Shown piece after piece: positions 206 to 31,961 of a stretch of 43,771 nucleotides of DNA. The stretch lies in assembly GCA_016874655.1 (NCBI GenBank), contig VGTO01000004.1, positions 1 to 43,771 of the forward strand, in the 5' to 3' direction. The translations under genes were made by a program, and so were the position numbers. Source of the DNA: Bacillota bacterium (GTDB lineage: Bacteria; Bacillota; Dethiobacteria; DTU022). The notes beneath the pieces are model-generated. The model worked only from the letters and a program-made list of their open reading frames with translations, made no database searches and had not been told where the DNA came from. Positions within the stretch are counted from its first letter, which is position 1; each line of letters starts with the position of its first letter.

Positions 206-1969
206 TTAGAAAAGACCCTGCACTTTGCCGGTTTCCACATCAACATCAACCCGACGATAAGCAGGATTGGCTGCGGTGCCAGGCATTAGTGAAATTGCCC
301 CGGCAACGGGAACAACGAACCCGGCGCCACCGTAGGTGAGAATATCGCGGATATGCAGCTTCCAGCCTTTAGGAACACCTTTAAGAACAGGGTTATCGGT
401 AAGGCTGAGGTGGGTTTTAACCATGCAGGTCCCCATCTTCTGAATCTCGGGATCTGCTTCCATCCGCTTGGCCTTCTCGAGTGCCTCGGCGGAGTATTCA
501 ACGCCGTCTGCCCCGTATACTTCCTTGGCAATCAGCTCAATACGCTGACGCAGTGGGGTTTCGAGTTCATAGAGGAATTTGAAGTCGTTCGGCTCGTTGC
601 AGGCTTCAACAACTGCATCGGCGAATTCGACTGCGCCTTCACCACCGTACTGCCAGTGCTTCGAAAGGGCAACCCGGGCGCCGGCTTCTTCCGCCAGGCG
701 ACGAACAGCCTTTACTTCGTTGTCGGTGTCAGTATAGAAGTGGTTGATACAGACAACAGGATTGATTCCGGCTTTTTTAACGGTCTTGATATGGTGAATC
801 AGGTTTTCGCAACCCTTTTCAACCCAGCCGACATTCTCCTGGCTGTATGCAGGATCAAGCGGCTGACCCGGAAGGGGAATCGGAGCACCACCATGACATT
901 TAAGGGCCCTGATTGTGGCCACGATAACCGCACAGTTTGGAACCAGACCGGACATCCGGCACTTTAAGTTCCAGAATTTTTCGAAACCGATATCAGCAGC
1001 AAACCCGGACTCGGTAATCACATAATCGCCCAATTTAAGGGCAACGCGGTCGGCAATAATTGAAGATTGGCCGATAGCAATGTTGGCAAAAGGACCAGCA
1101 TGAACAAAGACTGGCTGTCCTTCAAGGGTCTGCAACAGGTTCGGGTTGATCGCCTCAACCATCCAGGCGGTCATCGCTCCGGCAACATCAAGATCGCCGG
1201 TAGTAACAGGTTTGCCTTTTTTATCATAGGCGACCACTATTTTAGCCATCCGCTCCCGCATATCTTTCAGGTCCTTAGCCACAGCTAAAATGGCCATAAC
1301 CTCAGAAGAAACAGCGATGGCAAAGTTAGAGTTCATCATGAAACCATCTTTTCGGCCGCCGAGACCGATGATAATATTGCGCAAAGCTTGAGCACAGAAG
1401 TCAATAATCCATTTCATTTCCACATTGCGCGGGTCGATATTCAGCCTTTTCAGACCGCTACGCTCCAGAAAAGCATCGGTAGAGTTAAATTCATGCTGAA
1501 TCCGGGAAGTAAGCGCAACCATGGCCAGGTTATGGGCGTTCATAATCGCGTTGATATCTCCGGTAAGACCAAGCGAAAAGGGAGTCAAGGGAATACACTG
1601 CGCCAGACCACCGCCGGCTGCAGAGCCCTTAACATTCATGGTCGGACCACCGGAAGGCTGGCGAATGGTAGCGATAACATTCTTGCCACGCTTGCCCATT
1701 CCCTCGGTAAGTCCCATAGTCGAGGTCGATTTACCCTCGCCCAGTGGAGTGGGGGTGATTGCCGTAACGTCAATATACTTGCCGTCCGGCTTGTCTTTCA
1801 GTCTTTCAAGCACTTTCTTGTAATCAACTTTTGCCACATAGTGGCCGTGGGGCAGGAGCTCCTCCTTATCAAGGCCGAGCTCATCCGCTAACTGGTAAAC
1901 TTGCTTCATATTTGCTTCAGAATCTTCGGCAATTTCCCAGTCAGCATGTTTGGTAGGATCCAACGGCAT
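206..1969 (-). CDS. fhs: Formate--tetrahydrofolate ligase
   Basis: 587 aa; [17 protein letters not shown]-loop and full-length FTHFS-like sequence; aaggagg RBS. Confidence 0.97.
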
Positions 1970-24708: not shown

Positions 24709-24819
24709 TTAACCAAGATCAGACCAAACCACTTCAACCGCAGTAAATACTTTAGTAAAAAGCAGTTTTCCCGGGTGGCGACCGTAAAATGTCTGACCCA
24801 GTTTAGAAATAAAAAAGCT
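24709..24819 (-). pseudogene. Possible short orphan coding fragment
   Basis: Open frame SLSFFISKLGQTFYGRHPGKLLFTKVFTAVEVVWSDLG* with no canonical start. Confidence 0.25.
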
Positions 24820-26000
24820 TAGACTTCAACTGCTGCTGCCTGCTGGTTCATCTTTTTCTTCCTCACAATCAGGAAGTAAGTAAATACTCCGGCCAAGACA
24901 AGCAGCGCAATAGCCAGCAAGGGCCGATAAAAGATCCAGGCAATGGCGATGACCACAAAAGTCAGGATTATGGCGATCAACCCGGCGATTAAGCCAATCC
25001 CCGATGATAGCAAACGGCCGAGAAACGGCAAGACCACCCCAACAGTAGCTAAAGGCTTCAGTATTGTGTTGAGACCGATGAAAAAGAGGAAAAAGCCGAG
25101 GACTCTGAAGATCCAGGTCCGTAATACATTGGCCGCCTTGGCTGCTTCTATCATCTCTTCAGCAGAATGCATTCCCGGTCTTAAGATCTCGATCGTTGTA
25201 TTCTGTTCCGTTCGGAAAGGACCAATCTGTCCATTCATCACCCGGCCTAAGACCGATACCTGACCCGGTACCGCGTACTGGTGTGAAATTCTAACATCAC
25301 CGATCTGCGGAGTGCCGGGATTACCGATATAAATCTGGTTTTTGGAAATAGCTGCTTTTTCTAAGATGGGCTCGGGGATGTTCGCCAGGTCAGGATTGGT
25401 ATAATCAATAGGCTGGTTGGCCGAAATCTGACCGATCAGGCCTGGCGATAGAGTATAGGCGCCAATCATTACTAGTTGGACAGACCAGGACTGTCCCTGG
25501 TAAGGCATCTGGGCCGGATTGGCATTTCTGGTTCTGGCCTCGGGATCTTTAAAAGATGAAGACTGAATCAGCGATGAAGACCATACCGGCTCGTAGGTGT
25601 ATGTAGTGGTTGTTTCCTCGGTTCCGCCTACCTTTTCAACCGTTTCGGTGGTGGCGATCTCTTTCCACTGGTACATCTCAACCTGGCGGACAAGATGGAT
25701 CGCACCTATGCTGACTCCCAGTTCACTATCCACTAAAATTTCCGGGGTGGAGGTTTCACCGATGCCGTGAACAAACTGGCCTTCCATCTCCGGCGCCAGG
25801 CTATTCAGATCTGCCGCCACAACGCTGCCGGCACCCTCTTCCAAGCCTTTATAGACTCTTACAGCATAACCCTCATTAATCCATAACACCGGAAAAGCTG
25901 CAATAAAGAGGATTAATCCGATTAGGACTCCTTTAATCGAGCCCATCATCCGGTTACCGTAATTTTGTTTGGTAACCACCTTATATGGTTGATTAGCCAT
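24819..26000 (-). CDS. TMEM43 family membrane protein
   Basis: N-terminal TM, large soluble domain, C-terminal TM cluster like the TMEM43/LUMA family; RBS gggaggg before ATG at 26000. Confidence 0.8.
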   Translation of the reverse strand: MANQPYKVVTKQNYGNRMMGSIKGVLIGLILFIAAFPVLWINEGYAVRVYKGLEEGAGSVVAADLNSLAPEMEGQFVHGIGETSTPEILVDSELGVSIGAIHLVRQVEMYQWKEIATTETVEKVGGTEETTTTYTYEPVWSSSLIQSSSFKDPEARTRNANPAQMPYQGQSWSVQLVMIGAYTLSPGLIGQISANQPIDYTNPDLANIPEPILEKAAISKNQIYIGNPGTPQIGDVRISHQYAVPGQVSVLGRVMNGQIGPFRTEQNTTIEILRPGMHSAEEMIEAAKAANVLRTWIFRVLGFFLFFIGLNTILKPLATVGVVLPFLGRLLSSGIGLIAGLIAIILTFVVIAIAWIFYRPLLAIALLVLAGVFTYFLIVRKKKMNQQAAAVEV

Positions 26001-26155
26001 AGAAACCCCTCCCTTTATCAATAATTATTATAATGTAACAGGCCGCTAATCCTTGGACAACAAAGGAATCAGGGATTCTGATGACAAGATGATACCACGG
26101 CAGAAGAGCGCAAAGCAAGCTGAACTTATGCAAATTTGGGAAGTTACTGACCTGT

Positions 26156-26319: not shown

Positions 26320-26337
26320 TTGGCACAAAGATTGCTT
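26320..26337 (+). promoter_or_regulatory. Sigma-54 (-24/-12) promoter
   Basis: tTGGCACaaagaTTGCTt; GG and GC spaced as in the -24/-12 consensus; about 60 nt upstream of the transporter start. Confidence 0.88.
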
Positions 26338-26393: not shown

Positions 26394-27491
26394 ATGATCG
26401 ACAAGTGCGCATTCTGGAACGAATACGATTCAACAGCAGGGCATATCTGCTACTGTGAACTGGCCGCTTTTAACCGTCCGGTTAACCCTAATTTTCTGGA
26501 GGCCATCGGCTGCTCCAAAGAAAAACGGGTTGAATGCATGAAAACGATGGTGTATGCAACCGGAGCCGGGTTGGTCCCCGCAGAGCTGCCTGCACCAGTG
26601 TCTGCTCCCGCCACAGTTACCACACCGGTATTGTCCTGCGACCCGCCTGCAGAAATTGCCAAGACAGTGGTCGGAGTTGCTCAGAAAAAGGTTGCTACAG
26701 CAATTCCAGCCCTGATGATGTTGGCTATTCTCGCCGGTGCTTACATCGCCATGGGAGCAGTACTCTTTACCATTGTCACCAATGACTTAGCCTTATACAT
26801 TGGTGACGGCCTGAGCCGCCTGGTTGGGGGAGTTGCTTTTTCCCTGGGACTGATTCTGGTCGTATTGGGAGGAGCCGAATTATTCACCGGTAATAATTTG
26901 CTGGTCGCCGGCTATCTCGACAAAAAACTTAGCGGCAGACAGGTTCTTACCAACTGGTTCTGGGTTTATCTGTTCAACTTTGTTGGAGCCCTGGTGATCG
27001 TAGTGCTCTTTTACTACTCAGGGATCTGGAAAGCCAATGACGGAGGAGTAGTGACCAGAATCATTAACATCGCCGTGGCTAAGAGCAGCCTGACCTGGAG
27101 CGAGGCCCTGTTCAGGGGCATCCTCTGCAATTGGCTGGTCTGCCTGGCGGTCTGGCTTTCGCTGGCCGGCAAAGATGCAATCAGCAAGATTTTGGGAATC
27201 ATGATTCCGATCAGCGCTTTTGTCGCGGCCGGATTCGAACACTCGATTGCTAACATGTACTTCATTCCAATGGGTTTGATGCTGAAAAGCAGTGCTTTAG
27301 CCCAGGGACTTTTCACGCCGGCCGTGCTGCAGAGTTTGAGCTGGCAGGCTTTCTTCATCAACAACCTGGTACCGGTAACTATCGGCAACATTATCGGCGG
27401 AGTAGTCTTCGTGGCGATCGCCTACTGGACCTGCTATCTACGGCCACTGATGTCGAAAGAGATTGCCGTCAGTGCAAAGTTGCATATTTAA
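26394..27491 (+). CDS. Formate/nitrite transporter (FNT) family protein with N-terminal Cys-rich domain
   Basis: FNT-like core (GGAELFTGNNLLVAG, RGILCNWLVCLAVWLSLAGKD, AAGFEHSIANMYFIPMG); N-terminal CAFWNEY...CYC...GCSKEKRVEC; ATG at 26394 after aaaggagg. Confidence 0.93.
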   Translation: MIDKCAFWNEYDSTAGHICYCELAAFNRPVNPNFLEAIGCSKEKRVECMKTMVYATGAGLVPAELPAPVSAPATVTTPVLSCDPPAEIAKTVVGVAQKKVATAIPALMMLAILAGAYIAMGAVLFTIVTNDLALYIGDGLSRLVGGVAFSLGLILVVLGGAELFTGNNLLVAGYLDKKLSGRQVLTNWFWVYLFNFVGALVIVVLFYYSGIWKANDGGVVTRIINIAVAKSSLTWSEALFRGILCNWLVCLAVWLSLAGKDAISKILGIMIPISAFVAAGFEHSIANMYFIPMGLMLKSSALAQGLFTPAVLQSLSWQAFFINNLVPVTIGNIIGGVVFVAIAYWTCYLRPLMSKEIAVSAKLHI

Positions 27492-27528
27492 GGTGGCGCC
27501 GGAAAAGATAATTTAGGGAGTGAGAATT

Positions 27529-27786
27529 ATGGAAAAAATGGTAAGTTGCCCGAACTGGAAAGAATACCAGAGCCTTAACGGATGGGTAATGTTTTGTGGG
27601 GCTGGCGCCTACGGCCGCAAACTGACGGCGCAGGAGGCACGCAGCTGCGGCTGCAATGAACTGCAAAGATCAAAATGCAAAAAAATCATGGAAAACAATG
27701 TCGGTTACGGCCTGGTTCCGGAAATCTGTGAAGAATCGTTTGCCGAGGAAGCAAGAACAAACCTGGAACCGGTAAAAATAGTTTAA
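27529..27786 (+). CDS. Small Cys-rich protein paralogous to the N-terminus of the upstream FNT transporter
   Basis: MEKMVSCPNWKEYQSLNGWVMFC...GCNELQRSKC...GYGLVPE; gapless Cys alignment with the transporter; gggagtgag RBS. Confidence 0.85.
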   Translation: MEKMVSCPNWKEYQSLNGWVMFCGAGAYGRKLTAQEARSCGCNELQRSKCKKIMENNVGYGLVPEICEESFAEEARTNLEPVKIV

Positions 27787-27819: not shown

Positions 27820-27853
27820 TTAAAGGGGACACATTCTTTGGTGTCCCCTTTAA
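27820..27853. terminator. 13-bp perfect hairpin between the Cys-rich gene and the ADH gene (terminator, processing signal or REP-like)
   Basis: ttaaaggggacac-attctttg-gtgtcccctttaa. Confidence 0.6.
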
Positions 27854-28004: not shown

Positions 28005-29174
28005 GTGTATACCAGTAAATTCGTGACCCCGGAAATTATTTTTGGTACCGGATCACTGGACCAGATTGGCGAATGCTGCAGCCGACTGGGTTCAACGAAG
28101 GTTTTTCTGGTCGCCGACCAGGGCATCGAACGCTGCGGCTGGGTGGATAAGGCCCTGGTTTTCTTACGCGAAGCCAGTCTTGACCACTTTCTGTGGAGTG
28201 ACTTTTCTGCCAACCCCCGCGATTTTGAAGTAGAGGAAGGATGCAAGCGTTACTTAAAAGCAGGCTGTGACGCCGTTTTGGCGATTGGCGGCGGTAGCGC
28301 TGTCGACATTGCCAAGGCTGTAGCCACCTTGTCAACCAACCCTGGCCGGATCCACGATTACGAAGGTATCGATATGATCCAGGAACCACTCCCTCCGCTG
28401 ATTGTTGTTCCATCCACTGCCGGCTCCGGCGCCGAGGTATCACAGTTTGCCATAATCTCTGACAGTAAACGTAAAATAAAAATGACCATCATTTCAAAAT
28501 CTCTGGTCCCTGATATCGCGGTTTCCGACCCCCTTATACTTTCCACTGTCAACAGCAAACTGACTGCCAACACCGGCATGGAGGCGTTAAGCCATGCTGT
28601 GGAAGCTTACCTCTCCCTTGCAGCCACGGATATGACAGATATTCATGCCCTGCAAGCGATCAGGCTAATCGCAGCCAGCTTACGCTCATCGGTGGCCAGC
28701 CAGGTTGATGAAGCGGCCAAGATTGCCATGGGCCAGGCCAGCCTGCATGCCGGTATTGCTTTCTCTAACGCCGTACTGGGCCTGACTCACGCTATGACGC
28801 ACCAGATTGGCGGCCTCTTTGATCAACCGATCGGTTCGATTAGCGCCGTTTTGTTGCCATACGTGATGCGTTTTAACATGATTGCCTGTATTGACAAGTA
28901 TGCCGCCATTGCTGAAGCAATGGGCGCGCAGACCAAACATCTCACAAAGCGTGAAGCAGCAGAAATGGCGATCGAGATGGTCCGTGAGTTGGCCCGCGAT
29001 GTGGGGATACCGGCCGGTCTGGCCGAATTAGAGCTACCGGAGGAAGCTATTCCTGAACTAAGCCGCAACGCGATGAACGATGCCTGCTTTATTACCAACC
29101 CCCGTGATGCTGATGAGGATGATATCAGCAATATCTTTCGTGAAGTTTTAAAAACCAGGGGAGGTGAGCATTAA
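28005..29174 (+). CDS. Iron-containing alcohol dehydrogenase
   Basis: GGGSAVDIAKAVA, STAGSGAEVSQFAI, GMEALSHAVEAYLS, LTHAMTHQIGG; GTG at 28005 after aggaggg. Confidence 0.93.
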   Translation: MYTSKFVTPEIIFGTGSLDQIGECCSRLGSTKVFLVADQGIERCGWVDKALVFLREASLDHFLWSDFSANPRDFEVEEGCKRYLKAGCDAVLAIGGGSAVDIAKAVATLSTNPGRIHDYEGIDMIQEPLPPLIVVPSTAGSGAEVSQFAIISDSKRKIKMTIISKSLVPDIAVSDPLILSTVNSKLTANTGMEALSHAVEAYLSLAATDMTDIHALQAIRLIAASLRSSVASQVDEAAKIAMGQASLHAGIAFSNAVLGLTHAMTHQIGGLFDQPIGSISAVLLPYVMRFNMIACIDKYAAIAEAMGAQTKHLTKREAAEMAIEMVRELARDVGIPAGLAELELPEEAIPELSRNAMNDACFITNPRDADEDDISNIFREVLKTRGGEH

Positions 29175-30355
29175 TGGTTATTAGGAGCAAAAAAATATTA
29201 ATCGAAAAACTTACCGGTGTACACAGTTCAAAAAAGTCATACTATGTTGCCCTGAAGAATAAAATCAACGAGCTACTGGAGATTAAACGCGACTGGGAGG
29301 TTACTTTTTCCGCTGTCACCGATCTTCTGGTCTTTATCAACCAGGATTATGAGATCCAGCGTGTAAATCAGGCGGCTACCGATTTTTTTACAATGCCCGA
29401 GGAAAAAGTGGTCGGCGCAAAGTGTTACCAGATTTTTTACGGCCGCGAAGCAAAATGCAATCCCTGCCTGGGAGATCAGGTGCTGCAATCCCAAAAAACG
29501 TCATACCAGCAATCGCGGACCCGTTATAACCGTGTGCTCGATATTTTTGCCTACCCTGCCTTCACCGAGCAGGACGAACCTTACGGCGTAACCTATTACG
29601 CTAAGGATGTTACCCGTTTTGTAGATTCGATCAAACTGGTTTCAATGGGTGAAATGTCAGCCGGAGTGGCCCACGAGTTAAACAGCCCGCTGACCGCTAT
29701 AGTTGGCAACGCCCAACTGCTGCTGAGGGAATCTGATCCTGATAATCCACAGCACCAGCTGATCAAAGACATACACAGCAGCGGAATTCGCTGCCAGCGG
29801 ATCATCAAAAACCTACTGACCTTCTCGCGGCAGGATGAGTTTTCTTTTGAGGATGTCAACCTAAACGATGTGGTTGACAGTGCTTTAGCCCTTGCTACTT
29901 ACCAGATCGAAAAAAGCAGAATTGAACTGCTTGTCAATAAACACCCGGATATTCCTAAGATTTCGGGCAGTGCGAACAGCCTGGAGCAAATTATCGTAAA
30001 CCTGCTGCTTAACGCCAGAGATGCTGTAGAAAGCAAGTTTCAGGCCGGAGGTAAAAATGGAACAATCGGCCAGATCACATTGGATACCAGACTTCACCCT
30101 GAGGGGGAACTTGCCCTGGTTGAAATCTCCGATAACGGCTGCGGTATTGAACAGGACGATATCCCCCAGATTTTTAATCCATTTTTCACTACCAAGCAAA
30201 GTGGTAAAGGCACCGGTCTTGGCCTCTCAGTCAGCCTGGGCATCGCCCAGGCCCATGGCGGGTTCATCGATGTGCAGACCGTAATTGGTCAGGGCAGCAC
30301 TTTTAGCCTGATTCTGCCGCTGAAGAAGGCTGACTGTGAAAGCGAAGAGAGCTGA
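29174..30355 (+). CDS. PAS domain histidine kinase (NtrB-like)
   Basis: PAS with CYQIFYGREAKCNPC; H-box GVAHELNSPLTAI; HATPase NLLLNARDAV and GTGLGLSVS. Confidence 0.93.
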   Translation: MVIRSKKILIEKLTGVHSSKKSYYVALKNKINELLEIKRDWEVTFSAVTDLLVFINQDYEIQRVNQAATDFFTMPEEKVVGAKCYQIFYGREAKCNPCLGDQVLQSQKTSYQQSRTRYNRVLDIFAYPAFTEQDEPYGVTYYAKDVTRFVDSIKLVSMGEMSAGVAHELNSPLTAIVGNAQLLLRESDPDNPQHQLIKDIHSSGIRCQRIIKNLLTFSRQDEFSFEDVNLNDVVDSALALATYQIEKSRIELLVNKHPDIPKISGSANSLEQIIVNLLLNARDAVESKFQAGGKNGTIGQITLDTRLHPEGELALVEISDNGCGIEQDDIPQIFNPFFTTKQSGKGTGLGLSVSLGIAQAHGGFIDVQTVIGQGSTFSLILPLKKADCESEES

Positions 30356-30449
30356 ATGTGTAAAATAAATCAGCTGATAAGCCACTGAGGGTTCTACCTT
30401 TCTGAATAGCCGGATCCCGATTTGCCCGGGTTTACACTGGAGGTTGAAT

Positions 30450-31961
30450 ATGTCAAGCAAAGCATCTTTTCTGATTGTTGATGACGAGCAGGAAGTCTGC
30501 AATTTTTTTAGCTACCTGCTCAAGCAAAAGGGGTACCGGGTGATTACCGCCAACTCCGGAACCGAGGCTATGGAAATAATTGCAGAAAATCACTTTAATA
30601 CAGCCCTGGTTGACCTAAAACTACCTGATGCCAACGGCCTTGATATCCTGAAAGCAATAAAAGGAAGGCAACCTGACTGCGAAGTAATCATTATTACCGG
30701 CTACTCAACTGTCAAGTCTGCGGTTGAGGCGATTCAGCTCGGCGCTTTAGATTACGTAGAAAAACCTTTTGTTGATATCAACGAGATGGAAGCACTGCTT
30801 GATAAATCTCTGACTGTCAGGCCGGTAAGTGAAGAACTCTCCAAAGCAATACAGGAACAGGGTTTTATAATCGGCCGCAGTCAGAAGATGCTGAATTTAA
30901 TATCAGCCGCACAGAAGATCGCTAAAAAAAATATCACCATCCTGATCCAGGGGGAGACTGGCACCGGCAAGGAAGTGCTGGCACGGTACATTCATTCTGT
31001 CAGTCATCGCAGCGATCGTCCTTTTCTCGCTTTTAACTGCGGAGCCTTCACTGAAACACTGCTGGAGAGCGAACTTTTCGGCCACGAAAAAGGCTCCTTT
31101 ACCGGGGCAACTCACCGCAAAAAGGGAATCTTTGAACTGGCCCACAAAGCGACTCTTTTTCTGGATGAAATCGACTCAGCAAGTCCGGCGATTCAGATTA
31201 AGCTGCTAAGGGTTCTGGAAACTGGTGAATTCTTAAGGGTCGGTGGTGAAGAGATGTGCAAGATTGATGTCCGAATTATCACCGCCACTAATGCCGACCT
31301 AGCTGGTAAAGTTGCTGAAAACAAGTTCCGGGAAGATCTTTTTTACCGCCTTGACGTAGCATCCCTAAATATTCCGCCTCTTCGCGAACGGCAAGAAGAC
31401 ATTGAGCTGTTTATAGAGTTTTTCCTGGGTAAAGAAGCGCAGGCCAAACAGATTTCCCTGAAGCAGTTTAGCCCTGAAGCACTGGAGTTGATCAAAAAGC
31501 ATGAGTGGCCCGGAAATATTCGTGAACTTTCCAACACTGTCGCCCAGGCGCTGCTACTGAGCAAGGGCAATCTAATTGAAGTCGAGGACCTACCAGAGCG
31601 AATCCGTCGGGAATTCAAAATAAATAATTTGGAGAGCCTTGAGCAGCAGATGACAGCTGCAGTAAGCAAATCTGCTTTTGCCTGTCTTCCTGAGACGGGA
31701 GAAAAACTAAACAGTCTGCTCAATCAGTTTGCAGACAATCTTTTTAACGCTATAACTTTTCGTGAAGGGTTTGATTTTGAACTTTTCAATACCGAAATTA
31801 GCAACTGGCGCGACGACTTGCTCGCCACTTTAATTGAAAAAGCACTGGATGACACTTACGGTAATCAGGTCAAGGCCGCTGAACTGCTGCAGGTAACCCC
31901 GCGTGCTTTACGGTACCACCTGCAAAAAGCACGTAAGAAAGATAATACAAACCAGAGCTAG
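30450..31961 (+). CDS. Sigma-54-dependent response regulator (NtrC family)
   Basis: Receiver FLIVDDEQEV, GETGTGKEVLARYIH, GSFTGA loop, Fis-type HTH NQVKAAELLQVTPRALRYHL. Confidence 0.95.
   Translation: MSSKASFLIVDDEQEVCNFFSYLLKQKGYRVITANSGTEAMEIIAENHFNTALVDLKLPDANGLDILKAIKGRQPDCEVIIITGYSTVKSAVEAIQLGALDYVEKPFVDINEMEALLDKSLTVRPVSEELSKAIQEQGFIIGRSQKMLNLISAAQKIAKKNITILIQGETGTGKEVLARYIHSVSHRSDRPFLAFNCGAFTETLLESELFGHEKGSFTGATHRKKGIFELAHKATLFLDEIDSASPAIQIKLLRVLETGEFLRVGGEEMCKIDVRIITATNADLAGKVAENKFREDLFYRLDVASLNIPPLRERQEDIELFIEFFLGKEAQAKQISLKQFSPEALELIKKHEWPGNIRELSNTVAQALLLSKGNLIEVEDLPERIRREFKINNLESLEQQMTAAVSKSAFACLPETGEKLNSLLNQFADNLFNAITFREGFDFELFNTEISNWRDDLLATLIEKALDDTYGNQVKAAELLQVTPRALRYHLQKARKKDNTNQS

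Follow-up and report, generated by a model that had tools for sequence, protein, structure and literature searches.

The window, meaning the whole 43,771-nucleotide stretch of DNA that was analysed, contains a run of five genes on the forward strand. The first (26394..27491, +) encodes a FocA-type formate/nitrite channel of 365 aa, termed C4-FNT here, in which the channel family PF01226 was matched at residues 87-345. Residues 1-63 (26394..26582, +) form a small domain with four cysteines at positions 5, 21, 40, and 48, which we call C4. The second gene begins 37 nt downstream and encodes a free-standing C4 protein of 85 aa (27529..27786, +) with its four conserved cysteines at 7, 23, 42, and 50. 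The remaining genes encode an ErcA-like homologue of iron alcohol dehydrogenases (ADH) (28005..29174, +; NCBIfam ErcA), whose start codon is probably the GTG at 28005 that follows AAAGGAGGAGG, a PAS-domain histidine kinase (29174..30355, +; PF02518, PF00512, and PAS; cassette member c2), and an NtrC-type sigma54-activating response regulator (30444..31961, +; PF00072, PF00158, and PF02954; cassette member c3). The regulator has the receiver, the AAA sigma54 domain, and the Fis-type HTH that define the NtrC type. The initial annotation had located the channel and small-protein pair correctly but had placed its start at 26397; the ATG of the channel is at 26394.

A sigma54 (-24/-12) promoter, TTGGCACAAAGATTGCTT, is located at 26320..26337 (+), 57-74 nt upstream of the channel start codon. 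The intergenic region that separates the C4 gene from the ADH-like gene contains a perfect inverted repeat of 11 bp, AAAGGGGACAC...GTGTCCCCTTT (27822..27851, +). The repeat occurs once in the window, was not called by the terminator scan, and is a possible attenuator, terminator, or mobile hairpin. Divergent from these genes is one for a TMEM43-family membrane protein (24819-26021, -; PF07787, a family named for an animal protein). An ORF at 206-1969 (-) of the same contig resembles, by eye only, a formate-tetrahydrofolate ligase, which accords with one-carbon metabolism.

A four-cysteine domain on a formate-type channel and beside it

The body of the channel matched PF01226 at 269.4 bits against a gathering score of 34.6 (E=3.2e-80), and its nearest PDB entry was FocA (3q7k, E=2.6e-50). 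The sequence missed the cut-off of the FocA equivalog TIGR04060 (247.7 bits vs 290.1) and passed that of the broader subfamily TIGR00790 (250.8 bits vs 232.3); it is therefore a formate/nitrite family transporter, FocA-like but not FocA proper. When the FocA pore residues listed in PMC9380403 were compared, T91, K156, N172, E208, H209, S210, and N213 were kept in all 35 C4-FNT sequences, as were both candidate asparagines for N262 and an acidic E at D88. A Y-L-R/K motif follows the last helix of FNT channels (PMC5572259) and reads YLR in the window; among the 35 sequences, Y was found in 30 (F in the rest), L in 35, and R or K in 34. With these residues kept, a formate-type channel would be the natural reading. 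The N-terminus of FNT proteins is cytoplasmic (PMC5572259), and in E. coli, FocA has an N-terminal helix that gates its pore and to which PflB docks (PMC11841067). The C4 domain is thus placed where a relative exerts gating.

The first 63 residues of the channel aligned with the 85-aa protein by BLASTP at 20/58 identical and 29/58 similar positions with no gaps (E=6e-12), and the spacing C-x15-C-x18-C-x7-C was exact in both. These results confirm the proposal that one Cys4 domain occurs fused to a transporter and free-standing in consecutive genes, and they reproduce the gap-free alignment with about 20 of 58 identities that had been made by eye. As far as alignments can tell, the similarity of the two domains is far above chance and is kept between species. 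In a set of 77 distinct homologous copies from Bacillota, the four cysteines and their spacing were invariant (77/77); conservation of these cysteines among homologues had been set beforehand as one test of the domain. Alignment columns G17, A26, G40, G58, and P63 were also 100% conserved, followed by M53 (99%), R46 (97%), and T42 (96%). Two further motifs held in part. The first G and the P of the proposed GxGLVP signature are invariant, but its remaining positions vary; the W after the first cysteine is present in the window pair but is not universal, as HTH-fused copies and copies linked to formate dehydrogenase (FDH) have R or other residues.

Neither the N-terminal domain of the channel nor the 85-aa protein had a Pfam or NCBIfam match above cut-off. 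Searches of the PDB by sequence found no solved relative of C4 with phmmer and one chance match with a profile (E=0.61), so the earlier remark that no named family is known for the domain agrees with these three databases. A search of the papers accessible to the analysis found no named FNT fusion of the C4 kind and nothing on DUF2769 (PF10967), the one family to which C4 could have been assigned or related. DUF2769 proteins are likewise small, rich in cysteine, and without an assigned function, and a weak Pfam match to this family was obtained (14.6 bits, E=0.051; 3 of 13 C4 members). That score is below the gathering score of 22.8, and DUF2769 has eight or more cysteines in a CxC-x2-C pattern. 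A true member, L109:1306-1734, reads CxCxxCP...FC...CxCPxC, and the C4 profile did not match it (-6 bits with HMMER; hhalign probability 0.1%). Membership was rejected, and kinship with DUF2769 is hardly credible. By the sequence evidence, C4 is a genuine, previously unnamed domain family, and its fusion to FNT is a new architecture within a known kind of system, namely a formate channel under two-component and sigma54 control.

Two AlphaFold predictions of C4, built from shallow alignments, had pLDDT values of 60 and 55. Foldseek searches of the PDB with these models returned nothing at E<=0.001 and no match below E=1. Because the models were poor and no match was found, we make no claim about the fold. 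Zinc ribbons typically contain a CxxC knuckle. The C4 domain lacks this knuckle, and its four cysteines are widely spaced. To judge from the invariant cysteines alone, the cofactor is most likely zinc or an Fe-S cluster; cysteines so spaced would fit either.

A conserved cassette, its paralogues, and sigma54 promoters

The five genes recur in other genomes in the order C4-FNT, C4, ErcA-like ADH, PAS histidine kinase, and sigma54 response regulator, while the flanking genes differ among genomes. We recovered 23 cassette copies of the ADH-like gene, 22 of the histidine kinase gene, and 22 of the response regulator gene. C4 was present in 29 of 71 genomes of the same order, most of which have fused and free copies adjacent to each other, an arrangement found in different genera. 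When 300 genomes of the same phylum, Bacillota, were searched with a profile, C4 was found in 13, some of them from lineages that do not belong to the order, and class-level searches yielded further copies beyond the phylum-level set. The named records among close relatives were metagenome-assembled genomes labelled Syntrophomonadaceae or Bacillota. No C4 was found on plasmids.

The ADH-like protein of the cassette had ErcA (NF041833) as its best NCBIfam match, at 459.8 bits and below the cut-off of 550. The metal ligands of iron alcohol dehydrogenases are Asp-His-His-His, as in FucO-type enzymes. With the identity of the ligands taken from this general knowledge, the first Asp is changed to Glu and the last His to Ile in 23/23 cassette copies; the motifs read GMEALSH for GMDALTH and PIG for PHG, at positions checked against the PDB sequences 8zrl and 3bfj. 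As both changes occur in every copy, an ordinary iron-ADH active site would be unlikely. In Pseudomonas, ercA adjoins the kinase gene ercS (table in PMC12997753), and by analogy this neighborhood suggests a sensor role for the cassette protein. The cassette ADH clade is probably a pseudo-enzyme sensor.

Several arrangements of the domain were found apart from C4-FNT with an adjacent free C4 in the conserved cassette. In one lineage of another class, C4-FNT occurs without any free C4, which shows that a free copy can be dispensed with. The neighbors there (corrinoid and URO-D methyltransferase genes and an aromatic amino acid lyase) showed no consistent functional link. In f9, a genus of large genomes, only free copies occur, with no FDH or FNT genes nearby. 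The genome of the window itself has a third, stand-alone C4 copy (G000:C42:2906-3163). A natural 171-aa protein with two C4 domains is encoded at L043:1297-1809; its first half is of the FNT type and its second half of the free type, and its gene adjoins the cassette response regulator gene. Three operons contain a second C4-FNT gene (L062:4797-5921, L060:3592-4740, and L050:4181-5377). The C4 domains of these second copies have neither the W after the first cysteine nor the region after the fourth, and the copies appear to be either degenerating or specialised.

A tree of the C4 domains was built from 64 columns and resolved few inner forks. It separated all FNT-fused copies, which come from two distant lineages, together with the first half of the L043 protein, from all free and HTH-fused copies with support of 99/97. 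The HTH clade (98/92), the clade of FDH-linked free copies with those of f9 (99/96), and the clade of cassette free copies (100/98) were separate. Because of the 99/97 split, the window pair can be regarded as ancient paralogues that travel together. The initial annotation had the two domains arising by duplication; as a recent local event this was not supported, and a recent tandem duplication in the window's own genome was rejected by the same split. That old paralogues are kept side by side, and are joined in the L043 protein, suggests that the two C4 types act together.

The sigma54 promoter was searched for with the pattern TGGCA[CT]-N5-TTGC, of which 26320-26337 is the sole occurrence in the window; the consensus reported for Clostridiales is TTGGCATNNNNNTTGCT (PMC6615313). 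A site preceded 31/31 leading C4-FNT genes with readable upstream sequence, the 31st being L049, and in 30 of these it scored at least 10/11 and lay 52-93 nt upstream. No site was found before the internal second C4-FNT genes of the three operons. Five stand-alone C4 paralogues and the L043 double-domain gene were also preceded by a site. In the 683 kb of sequence that was retrieved, 40 of 46 sites preceded C4 genes. The window's own genome had 11 sites, compared with 0 for a reversed-pattern control, and two of them precede its two C4 transcription units. Other sites in this genome (L135, L137, and L139) precede two genes that by eye resemble aminotransferase genes and one that resembles a gene for an NAD-linked dehydrogenase; these are probably a small set of sigma54 targets.

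These findings bear on the possibility that C4 is a plain structural domain, in which a Cys4 zinc site would help the channel pentamer or an HTH dimer to fold and the free copy would be a redundant paralogue. The small size and four invariant cysteines would suit a structural zinc site, and the lineage that has C4-FNT with no free copy also favours this reading. However, other FNT channels assemble without C4, as the solved structures of FocA and NirC show. Moreover, the free type has been kept as a clade of its own beside the fused type; it also has paralogues that are driven by sigma54 promoters, and in the natural L043 protein it occurs together with an FNT-type domain. We regard a purely structural role as quite improbable.

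Formate dehydrogenase loci and the proposed role of the domain

In four genomes from three families, a formate dehydrogenase operon is immediately preceded by a gene that fuses an XRE-type HTH to C4, and before that gene stands one for a free C4. At these loci a single in-frame stop, probably a selenocysteine TGA, splits the reading frame of the FDH alpha subunit (TIGR01591); in genomes of the order, the same family likewise shows "1 TGA" inside it. The alpha gene is followed by those for an Fe-S beta subunit and then a flavin/NAD-binding gamma subunit. At L096-L099 the beta and gamma subunits are sulfhydrogenase-like, and a divergent second HTH gene is located upstream. No sigma54 site was found at the FDH loci with HTH-C4. 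The initial annotation included neither this link to FDH in other genomes nor the sigma54 promoter and the ErcA-like, kinase, and regulator genes. Whether or not they had the cassette, nearly all genomes of the order had FDH alpha (69/71), so joint presence or absence of cassette and FDH gives no support.

The connection of C4 to formate would come from two independent genomic contexts, the FNT fusion and the HTH fusion at the FDH operon. C4 probably binds metal and is a control element common to different parts of formate handling. In our preferred reading, to which we assign a probability of roughly 45%, C4 acts in the cytosol, where it binds a metal or an Fe-S cluster and serves both formate channels and formate regulators as a regulatory domain, and the free copy is its partner.

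The mechanism that we infer, for the cofactor, the binding between C4 types, and the signal as much as for gating, is as follows. C4 would be a small cytosolic Cys4 domain that binds one zinc or Fe-S cluster and serves formate metabolism as a regulatory and protein-contact module. Each subunit of the pentameric channel would carry one such domain, giving five on its cytoplasmic side, where the N-terminal helix of FocA gates and docks PflB. The separate C4 protein may bind the fused domains, or else the mouth of the channel, and determine the timing or the direction of formate passage. The kinase and regulator pair would switch on the channel and the C4 protein from the sigma54 promoter, with the altered ADH-like protein as the probable sensor. 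In other Bacillota, the pair of free C4 and HTH-C4 would regulate the formate dehydrogenase operon. A more specific version is that a redox or metal switch on the cytoplasmic mouth of the channel sets its opening or direction with a diffusible C4 partner, and that the same two-copy switch on a DNA-binding protein controls FDH, so that formate transport and enzyme supply are coupled to the redox or metal state of the cell. We consider this version unlikely.

Alternatively, C4 could sense nothing and be a docking adapter. A site stabilised by zinc would then bring an enzyme that makes or uses formate (FDH or a glycyl-radical enzyme) to the mouth of the channel, and the free C4 would be a bridging subunit. 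FocA does recruit PflB (PMC11841067), C4 genes adjoin FDH genes in other Bacillota, and FDH alpha is nearly universal in the order. PFL-like enzymes were also commoner in genomes with the cassette (22/29 vs 20/42; Fisher p=0.027, a test that ignores kinship). However, no PFL-like match was found in 7 of the 29 cassette genomes, among them several with a completeness of 93% or more, which rules out PflB as the general partner and gives no support for it as an obligatory one. Furthermore, the cassette itself has no FDH or PFL gene, and fusion of C4 to a DNA-binding HTH points to a regulatory role rather than a scaffold. Docking as the sole function is possible but doubtful.

Control of FNT channels as known from E. 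coli consists of a short N-terminal helix and PflB docking, and C4 is added at that very spot; as it is supplied both in cis and in trans, it offers a testable system for FNT gating and for the choice between efflux and uptake. Its presence on a DNA-binding protein beside FDH also suggests a shared part of formate control in anaerobic Bacillota that is absent from the family databases searched.

Comparison with known systems

C4-FNT shares with FocA (PF01226/TIGR04060) the FNT family, the pore residues, the Y-L-R/K end, and the cytoplasmic N-terminus. It differs in its N-terminal Cys4 domain and Pro/Ala-rich linker, its sigma54 promoter, the co-encoded free C4, and a TIGR04060 score below cut-off. 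The cassette resembles the ErcA/ErcS pair of Pseudomonas, which regulates ethanol oxidation, in that an Fe-ADH-like protein is encoded beside a histidine kinase. In contrast to ErcA/ErcS, the pair in the cassette is accompanied by a formate channel as well as a sigma54 response regulator, and its ADH-like protein scores below the ErcA cut-off; the ligand comparison covered sequences other than ErcA itself. Like the FhlA/sigma54 formate regulon of E. coli (PMC11841067), the cassette has formate-related genes under sigma54. The regulators differ, as the cassette encodes a two-component NtrC-type protein whereas FhlA is a one-component formate sensor, and so do the targets, which in the cassette, unlike the FhlA regulon, are a channel and a C4 protein.
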